Below, piece after piece: positions 7,558-11,069 of a DNA stretch of 42,848 bases. Positions within the stretch are counted from its first letter, which is position 1. Every line of letters begins with the position of its first letter. Position numbers and translations under genes: made by a program. The notes below the pieces were generated by a model. That model ran no database searches. It was not told the DNA's origin and worked only from the letters and a program-made list of their open reading frames with translations. Where the stretch lies: contig DYOU01000004.1 in NCBI GenBank assembly GCA_020720365.1, forward strand, positions 1-42,848. Reading direction: 5' to 3'. This stretch comes from Candidatus Elulimicrobium sp. (GTDB lineage Bacteria > Omnitrophota > Gorgyraeia > Zapsychrales > Fredricksoniimonadaceae).

Positions 7558-9657
7558 TCAATACAAGAATAACATCTCTGCGTACGTTGGCAGAGGCCAT
7601 AGATCCGACGGCACGATCCCTTCAAGCTCATCCGCGGCCGCGCGCGTCTGCAGCATAGCGGCTTTCATCTTGTCGGTGCAATGACAATCCAGCGCCGCTT
7701 CGATCGCTGCAATACCCGCCGCCAGGTCATCGGATAACTTGGTCACCTGGGACAAAAGCTTCTTGGCCGAAGCCGCCTTGGAACCAACACCTTCCACGGC
7801 CGTCACTGTTGCCGCCAAAGCCGCCTGATACTCCATTGCGGCCGGATAGATCTGCGTTGACGCGATCGTCCTGGCACATTCCGCTTCATAAGACAGAACG
7901 CTCTTGTAGTTATGCATATAGATCTCATAACGGGATAAGAGTTCTTTCTTTGAAAAAACAGAATGTTTTTCAAACAACTTGACCGTTGATTCATCCTCTA
8001 AAACCTGCAACGCTTCCGGCGTAGTCTTGAAATTCGGCAAGCCGCGGCGTTCTGCTTCCTTATGCCACTCTTCAGTATAATTATCGCCGTTAAAAAGAAC
8101 ACGCTTATGCTTCTTGATGATCGCCTGAAAGATCGCCTGAAGAGACTTGTTAAAATCCTTCTTCGCTCTCACATCAGCCTCAAGCTGTGTACACATAACA
8201 TCCAGCGCGTCGGCTACGATCGTATTCAGCGCCACATTCGCGCCCGAAGGGCTCATGTTAGAGCCAAGCGCGCGGAATTCAAATTTATTACCCGTGAACG
8301 CGAATGGTGAAGTGCGATTACGATCGGTAGCATCACGCGGCAATGTAGGAATAACGTCCACACCGATCTGAATCGTACCGCCGCTCTTCGCGGCCTTCGG
8401 TTCGCCCTTCTCTAACTGATCGATAATATCCGACAGCTGATCCCCAAGGAACACAGAAATGATCGCCGGAGGAGCTTCATTAGCCCCTAAACGATGATCA
8501 TTGCCAGGAGACGCTACCGTTGCGCGCAGCAGGGCCGCATTCTCATCAACCGCCTTGATGATCGCGCAAAGCGTGAAAAGGAACTTCGCATTCTCATGCG
8601 GATTAGAACCCGGATTCAACCAGTTTTTACCATCTGTACCAACAACGGACCAGTTATTATGTTTACCCGAGCCATTCACACCGGCGAACGGTTTTTCGTG
8701 CAACAAACAAGCCAGGCCATGCTTATCCGCGACCTGCTTCATAACATCCATACACATCATATTATGATCAACCGCCAGGTTCAACCGCTCAAAGATCGGT
8801 GCGAGCTCAAACTGTGCCGGAGCCACTTCATTATGACGCGTTTTCGCCGGCATCCCCAATTTCCAAAGTGTCTGGTCAAGCTCTTCCATGAACGCCAGGA
8901 TCCGCGGACGAATAGCACCAAAATAATGATCTTCCATCTGTTGATGGCGCGCCGGCTTACGGCCGAACAGGGTACGTCCTGTCTGAACAAGGTCCAAACG
9001 GGCATTATAAAATTCCTTGTCAATAAGGAAATATTCCTGCTCTGGCCCTAAAGTCACGTACGCCTTGGCGGCCGACTTCACACCGAATAACTTACCAGCA
9101 CGGCCCATCTGTTTGGCCAATGCGGCGATCGAACGAAGAAGGGGCGCTTTCTTATCAAGAGCCTCTCCGTGATAACCGCAGAAAATTGTCGGAATACACA
9201 AAGTTGCGCCTTCCTGGCCTTCTTTAATAAAAGCAGGACTGGTTGGATCCCAGGCCGTATAACCACGGGCTTCAAACGTAGCGCGTAAACCGCCAGAAGG
9301 AAAAGAAGAAGCATCCGGCTCACCCTGGATCAATTCTTTCGCAGAAAACTCCATCTTAACGCCGCCCTGGCCATCCGGAGAAATAAACGAATCATGCTTC
9401 TCGGCCGTAGTACCGGTCAAAGGCTGGAACCAATGGCAGAAATGCGTAGCGCCCTTGGAAACCGCCCAGGCCTTCATGGCTCCCGCCACTTCACCCGCGA
9501 TCGCCGGATCCAGCGCACCGCCTTCATTCATTGTCTTGCTCAAAGAGTCAAACGCCTTCTTTGAAAGCATCTTTTGCATAACATTCAGGCCGAACACATT
9601 CTCGCCGTACATGGCTTCGACTGCGCTGACCACCTTTTTGGTGTTCTTTGCTGCCAT
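7558..9657 (-). CDS. glnN: Glutamine synthetase type III
   Basis: GlnN condenses glutamate and ammonia with ATP to form glutamine. The 699-residue length and N-terminal extension (ENVFGLNVMQKMLSKKAF) mark the type III family rather than GSI (about 470 aa). Active-site motifs include LGPEQEYFLID near residue 205, TRHNEVAPAQFELAP near residue 265 and GVNGSGKHNNWS near residue 335, followed by the long helical GSIII C-terminal domain. The ORF track starts at TTG 9663; I prefer ATG 9657, which is 7 nt downstream of AGGAGG, since the TTG is only 1 nt from it. The gene has its own promoter and a long leader with a terminator that overlaps an ANTAR-type hairpin, and the next upstream gene encodes an ANTAR protein. 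GSIII lacks the adenylylation site of GSI, so RNA-level control is plausible. Confidence 0.97.
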   Translation of the reverse strand: MAAKNTKKVVSAVEAMYGENVFGLNVMQKMLSKKAFDSLSKTMNEGGALDPAIAGEVAGAMKAWAVSKGATHFCHWFQPLTGTTAEKHDSFISPDGQGGVKMEFSAKELIQGEPDASSFPSGGLRATFEARGYTAWDPTSPAFIKEGQEGATLCIPTIFCGYHGEALDKKAPLLRSIAALAKQMGRAGKLFGVKSAAKAYVTLGPEQEYFLIDKEFYNARLDLVQTGRTLFGRKPARHQQMEDHYFGAIRPRILAFMEELDQTLWKLGMPAKTRHNEVAPAQFELAPIFERLNLAVDHNMMCMDVMKQVADKHGLACLLHEKPFAGVNGSGKHNNWSVVGTDGKNWLNPGSNPHENAKFLFTLCAIIKAVDENAALLRATVASPGNDHRLGANEAPPAIISVFLGDQLSDIIDQLEKGEPKAAKSGGTIQIGVDVIPTLPRDATDRNRTSPFAFTGNKFEFRALGSNMSPSGANVALNTIVADALDVMCTQLEADVRAKKDFNKSLQAIFQAIIKKHKRVLFNGDNYTEEWHKEAERRGLPNFKTTPEALQVLEDESTVKLFEKHSVFSKKELLSRYEIYMHNYKSVLSYEAECARTIASTQIYPAAMEYQAALAATVTAVEGVGSKAASAKKLLSQVTKLSDDLAAGIAAIEAALDCHCTDKMKAAMLQTRAAADELEGIVPSDLWPLPTYAEMLFLY

Positions 9658-9699: not shown

Positions 9700-9742
9700 A
9701 AAATCAAAAATCCTCTTCCGAAAAGACAATTTTCGAAAGAGG
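9700..9742 (-). terminator. Intrinsic terminator in the glnN leader (attenuator)
   Basis: On the minus strand the arms CCTCTTTCGAAAA and TTTTCGGAAGAGG form a 13-position stem with one wobble/mismatch around a TTGTC loop. ATTTTTGATTTT follows at once. It lies between the glnN promoter and its ribosome site, so it would stop transcripts before glnN. Its 5' arm is shared with the hexaloop hairpin just upstream, so the two folds exclude each other. Confidence 0.8.
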
Positions 9743-9759
9743 ACGTCAATGCCCTGCTT
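9736..9759 (-). promoter_or_regulatory. ANTAR-type hexaloop hairpin (antiterminator) in the glnN leader
   Basis: The RNA GGGC-AUUGAC-GUCC forms a stem closing a six-base loop. The loop has A at position 1 and G at position 4, the hallmark of ANTAR targets. The stem extends outward to nine positions with one C-C mismatch. Seven bases on its 3' side are also the 5' arm of the terminator, so binding here would block terminator folding. The second upstream hairpin of the usual two-hairpin motif is not obvious to me. Confidence 0.65.
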
Positions 9760-9796
9760 TGTTCATTTGCACGCTATCCCGCTTTTAATCCAACAA

Positions 9797-9824
9797 AGTA
9801 TATCCCTCAGCCAAAACTTGTCAA
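9797..9824 (-). promoter_or_regulatory. glnN promoter
   Basis: TTGACA and TATACT are separated by 16 bp on the minus strand, in the gap between the ANTAR gene and glnN. Transcription would start near 9790, giving a leader of about 130 nt that contains the hexaloop hairpin and the terminator. Confidence 0.65.
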
Positions 9825-9845: not shown

Positions 9846-11069
9846 TCAGGCTTTCTTCTGGAAATCTGCCATCAGCACGATCGATTCCGCAATTTCTTTC
9901 ATGGTCCGGCAGGAATCCATGCTCTTTTTATGGATCATTTTATAGGCCGCTTCCTCCGAAAGATCATTCATCTTCATCAAAATGCCTTTCGCCCGCTCGA
10001 CGATCTTGCGCGTTTCCAGCGCTTCTTTGGACTTTAATGCCTCTTCCATCAAACGGGTGTTCAATACCGCCGCCGCCGCCTGATTGGCCACTACCTGAAG
10101 GATCCCGACTTCATCGGAAGAAAATACATGCGGTTCTTTGGTATACACATTGATCACACCGATCGCCCGGTCTTTCACGACCATCGGGACCGCCACCATT
10201 GAACTTAACCCTTCTTTAACCGCCAGCTCACGATAAAAATACCGCGTTTCCTTACGCACATCCTCCACAATCAATGGACGCAGGGTTTTAACCACTTCAC
10301 CGATCAAACTGGAGTCCACCCTCAGGTTCGGTTTCTTTTTATATTCATCACTCAGGCTCTGCGTTGCCTTGATCGTCAATTCCAGGCCCTTCGCATCCAA
10401 CAGCATAACCGAACAGATCTTGGAATTCAGCATCTCCGCGGTCACAATAACGATCAGGCTCAGGATCTCCTCCAGATACTTTTCCGATATGATCGATCGG
10501 CTGACCTTGACCAGGCTGTCGAACTGCACAGCTTTTTGCCGGGTGTCACTGAATAAACGGGCATGTTCCACAACTCCACCCAATTGCCGCGCCGCCATCC
10601 CCAGAAGATCGACCACTTCCACAGGAAAATCAAAAGGTTTCTTATGCTGCAAATTAATAACGCCAACAGCTTTCCCTTTATATACGATCGGCACCGCAAG
10701 GAAAGCTTCATAATGATCTTCCGGCAGAACATCAAAAGCCTTAAAGCGCGGATCATTATAGGCATTCGCCTTGATCGCCAGCGGCTTGACATTCTTGGCA
10801 ACCCAGCCCGTCAACCCTTCACCGACCTTAAGCGCCACATTCCCCAATTCTTTCTTGTGAGGAGTCTTCGACGCGCGCAATACCAGGTTCTTGTTCGCCT
10901 CATCGAACAAATATACAAATACCGAATCCGCCGGCGCCATATCCAAAGCCACCTTAACGATCTCGCCCAACACACCTTCCAGATCCGTCTCGGAAGTTGT
11001 AATATCAACGATCCTGCGCAAGATAAGAAGTTCGTCCTCTGAAGAAAGGGCTTTTCTGACCTTCGCCAT
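9846..11069 (-). CDS. GAF-GAF-ANTAR transcription antiterminator
   Basis: A 407-residue soluble regulator with two GAF sensor domains (about residues 20-165 and 190-345) and a C-terminal ANTAR RNA-binding domain (about 350-405). The ANTAR part is recognised from ETRKIVERAKGILMKMNDLS, the spacing of its three helices and the pattern EEAAYKMIHKKSMD. It has no response-regulator receiver, so the signal is likely a small ligand or a redox cue at a GAF domain. ANTAR proteins bind paired hexaloop hairpins in nascent RNA and prevent termination, classically in nitrogen genes. The next gene is glnN, whose leader has such a loop overlapping a terminator. GGAG lies 6 nt before the ATG. The gene is 15 bp downstream of the peptidoglycan-binding lipoprotein gene and probably shares its promoter. 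Confidence 0.92.
   Translation of the reverse strand: MAKVRKALSSEDELLILRRIVDITTSETDLEGVLGEIVKVALDMAPADSVFVYLFDEANKNLVLRASKTPHKKELGNVALKVGEGLTGWVAKNVKPLAIKANAYNDPRFKAFDVLPEDHYEAFLAVPIVYKGKAVGVINLQHKKPFDFPVEVVDLLGMAARQLGGVVEHARLFSDTRQKAVQFDSLVKVSRSIISEKYLEEILSLIVIVTAEMLNSKICSVMLLDAKGLELTIKATQSLSDEYKKKPNLRVDSSLIGEVVKTLRPLIVEDVRKETRYFYRELAVKEGLSSMVAVPMVVKDRAIGVINVYTKEPHVFSSDEVGILQVVANQAAAAVLNTRLMEEALKSKEALETRKIVERAKGILMKMNDLSEEAAYKMIHKKSMDSCRTMKEIAESIVLMADFQKKA

Follow-up and report, generated by a model that had tools for sequence, protein, structure and literature searches.

The stretch of Omnitrophota DNA analyzed here (the window, 42,848 nucleotides) carries glnN, the gene for a type III glutamine synthetase, next to and downstream of a gene for a GAF-GAF-ANTAR protein, and the locus raises the question of whether the leader between the two is an ANTAR-controlled transcription attenuator and, if so, which RNA elements work the switch. 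The evidence below makes it very probable that the glnN leader is such an attenuator.

Anatomy of the glnN leader

The leader runs on the minus strand from 9824 down to 9657, between two genes on the same strand. Its parts and neighbors are as follows.

9846 to 11069, minus strand: gene for the GAF-GAF-ANTAR protein (407 aa; Pfam GAF twice, ANTAR), the presumed cognate antiterminator
9797 to 9824, minus strand: glnN leader promoter of sigma-70-like type (TTGACA-16-TATACT, agreeing with the consensus at 11 of 12 positions; equivalents in the leaders of relatives)
9756 to 9790, minus strand: 5' part of the leader, site of a first hairpin (P1) in relatives and degenerate here (the homologous stretch in relatives is a P1 with A1/G4)
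9740 to 9755, minus strand: P2 hairpin AGGGC-AUUGAC-GUCCU, a hexaloop with A1 and G4, the predicted antiterminator (sequence; loop conservation)
9710 to 9744, minus strand: intrinsic terminator hairpin, which has GUCCU in common with P2 (15 bp; covariation)
9701 to 9709, minus strand: U-rich tract of the terminator (sequence)
7558 to 9657, minus strand: glnN, the presumed controlled gene, encoding a type III glutamine synthetase of 699 aa (Pfam GSIII_N, Gln-synt_C, Gln-synt_C-ter)

The promoter that a sequence-only reading of this DNA had placed in the leader consists of a TTGACA box (9824-9819), a 16 bp spacer, and a TATACT box (9802-9797), with a predicted transcription start at about 9790. 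Roughly 35 bases downstream of that start is the hairpin claimed by the same reading, with arms AGGGC (9755-9751) and GUCCU (9744-9740) enclosing the loop AUUGAC (9750-9745). The terminator comprises 15 uninterrupted pairs and a 5-nt loop. Because both hairpins use GUCCU, they are mutually exclusive, as had been proposed, but the overlap amounts to these five bases and not to seven. Folded in isolation, P2 reaches −5.0 kcal/mol and the terminator −19.0 kcal/mol, so termination is the predicted default. An AGGAGG ribosome-binding site lies close upstream of glnN.

Folds of the plus strand were discarded since the genes are on the minus strand, and a UUUGUU/AACAAAG stem that dominates some folds was excluded on the ground that transcription is expected to start downstream of its 5' arm.

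As a control for chance, related loci were scanned for an A..G.. hexaloop whose 3' arm begins a terminator; 292 kb yielded 24 distinct matches, and a Markov-shuffled copy of equal size yielded none.

The ANTAR protein and its neighbor

Pfam confirms the domain make-up expected of the upstream neighbor, matching GAF to two stretches of the protein and ANTAR (PF03861) to window positions 9849-10082 on the minus strand with 71.1 bits against a curated cut-off of 27.3. This protein is the sole PF03861 match in its own genome, which is 86% complete. Its named relatives, at 84-62% identity, come nearly all from Candidatus Omnitrophota genomes, and within its own family 27 of 32 genomes encode an orthologue (E 1e-30 or better). 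The glnN product matches GSIII_N at E 3.9e-76.

Comparison with EutV of Enterococcus faecalis shows that the equivalents of R142, K143, E160, Y164, and M172 are retained in the window protein, among them the contacts to the flipped G4 (R142, E160, Y164) and the methionine plug (M172). Across 47 relatives, R142 and K143 are present in all 47, E160 in 46, M172 in 45, and Y164 in 40. K147 is replaced by R, and N173, R175, and R177 are replaced by D, C, and T; in EutV, the triple mutant at these last three positions abolishes RNA binding. Most relatives have D/C/S there, such that the RNA-contacting loop is unlike that of EutV across Omnitrophota.

The first GAF domain finds its best match in PDB entry 3ci6 (E 1.8e-21), which, together with one further entry, we take from the molecule name to be the GAF domain of PtsP. 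PtsP serves the nitrogen phosphotransferase system as its enzyme I. The NifA model aligns through its N-terminal part to the second GAF domain and the ANTAR region, far under its cut-off. These two likenesses hint that the ligand of the GAF domains may be a nitrogen or carbon metabolite; glutamine or 2-oxoglutarate would be in keeping with the PtsP likeness of the first domain.

Conservation across the family and phylum

An Infernal model built from 24 leaders found at related loci matches 29 of the 32 genomes in the family, covering all 14 genera, and 97 of 384 Omnitrophota genomes; the window leader scores 64.9 bits, among the best in its family. Most relatives have the same hairpin with an overlapping terminator downstream of their ANTAR gene. 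By comparison of two lists, an ANTAR gene occurs in ≈88 of the 97 genomes with a leader versus 284 of 384 overall, a co-occurrence across the phylum that is supportive but weak, since the leader model also catches some plain terminators. The leader-bearing genomes in which an ANTAR gene was not detected may be incomplete assemblies.

Among 120 distinct leaders, 27 directly precede glnN, 29 amtB, nine a nirB-like gene, and three nifH. Furthermore, in four genomes (G011, G013, G017, and G031, the last by eye), glnN lies apart from the ANTAR gene and still has the leader, which ties the RNA to its target gene and not merely to the ANTAR locus. The proposal of ANTAR-controlled attenuation is thus strengthened by a motif that is family-wide, stays with glnN away from the ANTAR gene, and precedes other nitrogen genes.

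In the genome of the window, a search with the leader model found glnN as the only convincing leader-bearing gene. A second match on contig C166 (E 1.4e-5) proved to be an ordinary terminator after an apparent rpsI, with no hexaloop, and was dropped. The genome's sole ammonium-transporter match (L126, G000:C107:25673-26140) is partial and contains TGA and TAA, which could reflect a pseudogene or an error in the assembly.

An alternative view is that the leader is a decaying relic, an ancestral switch from which ANTAR control over glnN is disappearing in this genome, with a leaky terminator left behind. Such a relic would account for the degenerate P1, the single such leader found, and an only detected ammonium-transporter match that is partial with in-frame stops. 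However, there is no flaw in P2, in its loop, or in the 15-bp terminator, the leader scores 64.9 bits with the model, among the highest values in the family, and the ANTAR gene is intact; we regard a relic as quite improbable.

Covariation and loop bases

In aligned leaders, 91% of the cells of the terminator helix are paired and 58 are changed on both sides, a result that none of 500 shuffles reaches and that slid versions come nowhere near. No covariation was counted for P2, whose stem is almost invariant, with a G.U pair in 21 of 24 leaders. The terminator fixes the 3' arm of P2, which leaves the stem too invariant to covary. Covariation of the hexaloop hairpin, on which the sequence-only reading had staked its proposal, is therefore lacking in P2 itself, but it is present in the terminator and in the P1 of relatives.

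The loop is the better witness for P2. A scan of all loci for any hexaloop overlapping a terminator gave 80 matches, with A1 in 63 and G4 in 74; other loop sizes were rare in the same scan (nine with five bases, 13 with seven). At loci retrieved with nothing but the ANTAR protein as query, free of bias from the RNA model and with no base requirement, A1 and G4 occur together in 23 of 32, where even base usage would give 1 in 16.

These bases bear on whether the hexaloop might be incidental to an attenuator run by other means (a riboswitch, for instance, or leader-peptide translation). We consider this very improbable: the most constant loop bases are the ANTAR signature, an ANTAR gene stands alongside the leader in most relatives, and no Rfam covariance model, that of the glutamine riboswitch included, matches the leader even at E 1.

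Approximately 20 of the 120 leaders (L105, L090, L113, L044, L099, and others) have G at loop position 1 and keep G4, relaxing the published A1 rule. In L016 (near 2807) and L020 (near 2801), P2 has a 7-base loop, AAAGAUA, within GGAC/GUCC or GGGC/GUCC, possibly a tolerated variant; both leaders retain a perfect P1.

The first hairpin is decayed or absent in the genus

Published ANTAR targets are defined as two hexaloop hairpins (PMC8164766 and PMC3369931), P1 and P2, separated by a linker of 2-25 nt (PMC8164766). The sequence-only reading saw no clear second hexaloop hairpin upstream of the AUUGAC loop, and rightly so: upstream of P2, the leader offers no A1/G4 hexaloop with a stem of more than 1 bp. 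At the site itself, the loop GGGAUA (G1/A4) is flanked by no more than C-G and G-C pairs, one A-U pair, and a mismatched A.G.

In the comparison with relatives that this reading had suggested, P2 and the terminator are conserved and P1 is present in those with long leaders (L010, UGAAGAC-AGUGUG-GUCUUCA; L011; L013; L088; and others), but P1 appears to be absent from many leaders. Where present, it covaries: in 12 aligned hairpins, for which rows outside the glnN set were picked partly for possessing a stem, 97.6% of cells pair and 24 are double-changed, with none of 500 shuffles reaching this. Within the window's genus, P1 is decayed or absent. Congeners L003 and L004 have a strong stem at the P1 site (−8.5 and −7.9 kcal/mol) with loops that lack A1/G4, and L005 has only 17 bases from the −10 box to P2, which leaves no room for a P1.

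The window leader might still be a canonical dual-hexaloop target whose P1 is merely unusual (e.g., GCG-GGAUAG-CGU) and continues to recruit. Its distance of 41 from the −10 box to P2 is within the range of P1-bearing relatives, and the stems of L003 and L004 would fit such a P1, but the window site lacks an A1/G4 hexaloop and its fold reaches only −3.4 kcal/mol, the L003 and L004 loops are missing A1/G4 too, and L005 does without P1 altogether. We judge this unlikely and lean toward a switch that operates from P2 alone, P1 having decayed or disappeared in the genus.

Leaders with no room for P1 also occur across the phylum. Among the 56 leaders with strong promoters, to which the count was restricted, −10-to-P2 distances fall into two groups, 26 leaders at 11-21 nt and 30 at 29 nt or more. 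In the short class, the predicted transcript start lies only 5-15 nt before P2, which makes a P1 impossible. A scanner with a strict loop rule found no second unit within 140 nt in 17 of the 26 short leaders; in L021, L023, L122, and L128, a further unit is visible by eye. Eight short leaders precede glnN, and a single unit is all that is visible in the stretch of sequence inspected in L005, L038, L105, L146, and L169 (all short and before glnN) and in L093. On balance, these distances favor a class of single-hexaloop ANTAR attenuators in Omnitrophota, with P2 at the 5' end of the transcript and antitermination that would proceed without a recruitment hairpin, a state that the window leader would have reached by decay of P1 in place.

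Serial P2-terminator units, often before amtB, occur in L019, L021, L023, L044, L098, L100, L103, L122, and L128, the first of them right where the transcript begins.

Relation to known ANTAR systems

That ANTAR antitermination of nitrogen genes is established, as the sequence-only reading assumed, is confirmed by Ramesh et al. (PMC3369931, 2012), which describes the switch between P2 and terminator and its link to nitrogen genes and glutamine synthesis. The targets given there, in Desulfotomaculum acetoxidans and Pelobacter carbinolicus among others, number several per genome and include glutamate and glutamine synthesis, ammonium transport, and nitrogenase. Those hexaloop/terminator leaders before nitrogen genes are like the window leader, whereas the searches that found them demanded two hexaloop hairpins. 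Neither Omnitrophota nor type III glutamine synthetase is named in the sections consulted.

The closest anatomical parallel is with EutV/EutW and the eut leaders of E. faecalis, which share the A1/G4 hexaloop of P2, the use of its 3' arm as the 5' arm of the terminator, and, in EutV, the residues contacting G4. Unlike the eut leaders, the window leader has no recognizable P1, and in 26 related leaders a P1 is physically impossible; the sensor also differs, being GAF-GAF in place of the phosphorylated receiver of EutV, and so does the target, which is glnN. For EutV, both hexaloops are reported to be obligatory for antitermination in vivo and one to be enough for binding (PMC8934654), and in the model based on it, the first hexaloop recruits the protein to polymerase.

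NasR and the nasF leader of Klebsiella likewise pair a one-component, ligand-sensing ANTAR protein with a leader for nitrogen assimilation; NasR senses through a nitrate-binding NIT domain in place of GAF domains, and the window leader lacks a clear P1. In Clostridium saccharobutylicum, the ANTAR protein NitR reportedly has been proposed to control the glutamine synthetase gene glnA, a pairing like the one here except that the enzyme is said to be type I and NitR a receiver-ANTAR protein. For NitR, for GnfR, or for a GAF-ANTAR regulator already described in print, no usable open paper other than the works cited was found.

We infer that the window leader resembles the eut, nas, and ami attenuators in how it works; with P1, one defining feature, missing, it is a variant and not a plain dual-hexaloop member. 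This missing hairpin is what goes beyond the sequence-only reading. No single-hexaloop antitermination leader was found in the main texts of the open papers searched.

Proposed mechanism and wider occurrence

In the mechanism we propose, RNA polymerase would start ≈45 bases ahead of the terminator hairpin, and by default the nascent RNA would form the strong terminator and transcription would halt before glnN. The switch is probably opened by the neighboring sensor protein. When active, the GAF-GAF-ANTAR protein would bind the A1/G4 hexaloop of the emerging P2, stabilize this weak hairpin, and thereby sequester the terminator's 5' arm GUCCU until polymerase has passed. The GAF domains probably sense nitrogen status, such that glnN would be made under nitrogen shortage.

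Many Omnitrophota leaders, before glnN, amtB, and other genes, appear to lack the first hexaloop and to keep the second with its terminator. The role of P1 can thus be tested on natural pairs, with L010, L011, and L013 bearing P1 and L005, L105, and the window leader lacking it. The uncultured Omnitrophota gain a concrete candidate nitrogen regulon. For GAF-ANTAR proteins, of which PMC3369931 knew no characterized example in 2012, proposed targets are now on offer.

Two further kinds of locus in the phylum deserve mention. Leader L075 (G027:C131) has both a P1, UGGGGCGU-AAAGAA-GCGCCUUG, and a P2, and lies 57 nt before a nifH-like gene, an arrangement that suggests nitrogenase may be under ANTAR control in an Omnitrophota genome. 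In several genomes of one genus (L017, L018, L019, L026, and L027), a small gene separates the amtB leader from the ANTAR gene; its product is ≈71 aa long and begins MRQ/MIQ/MAL..TVKRT.
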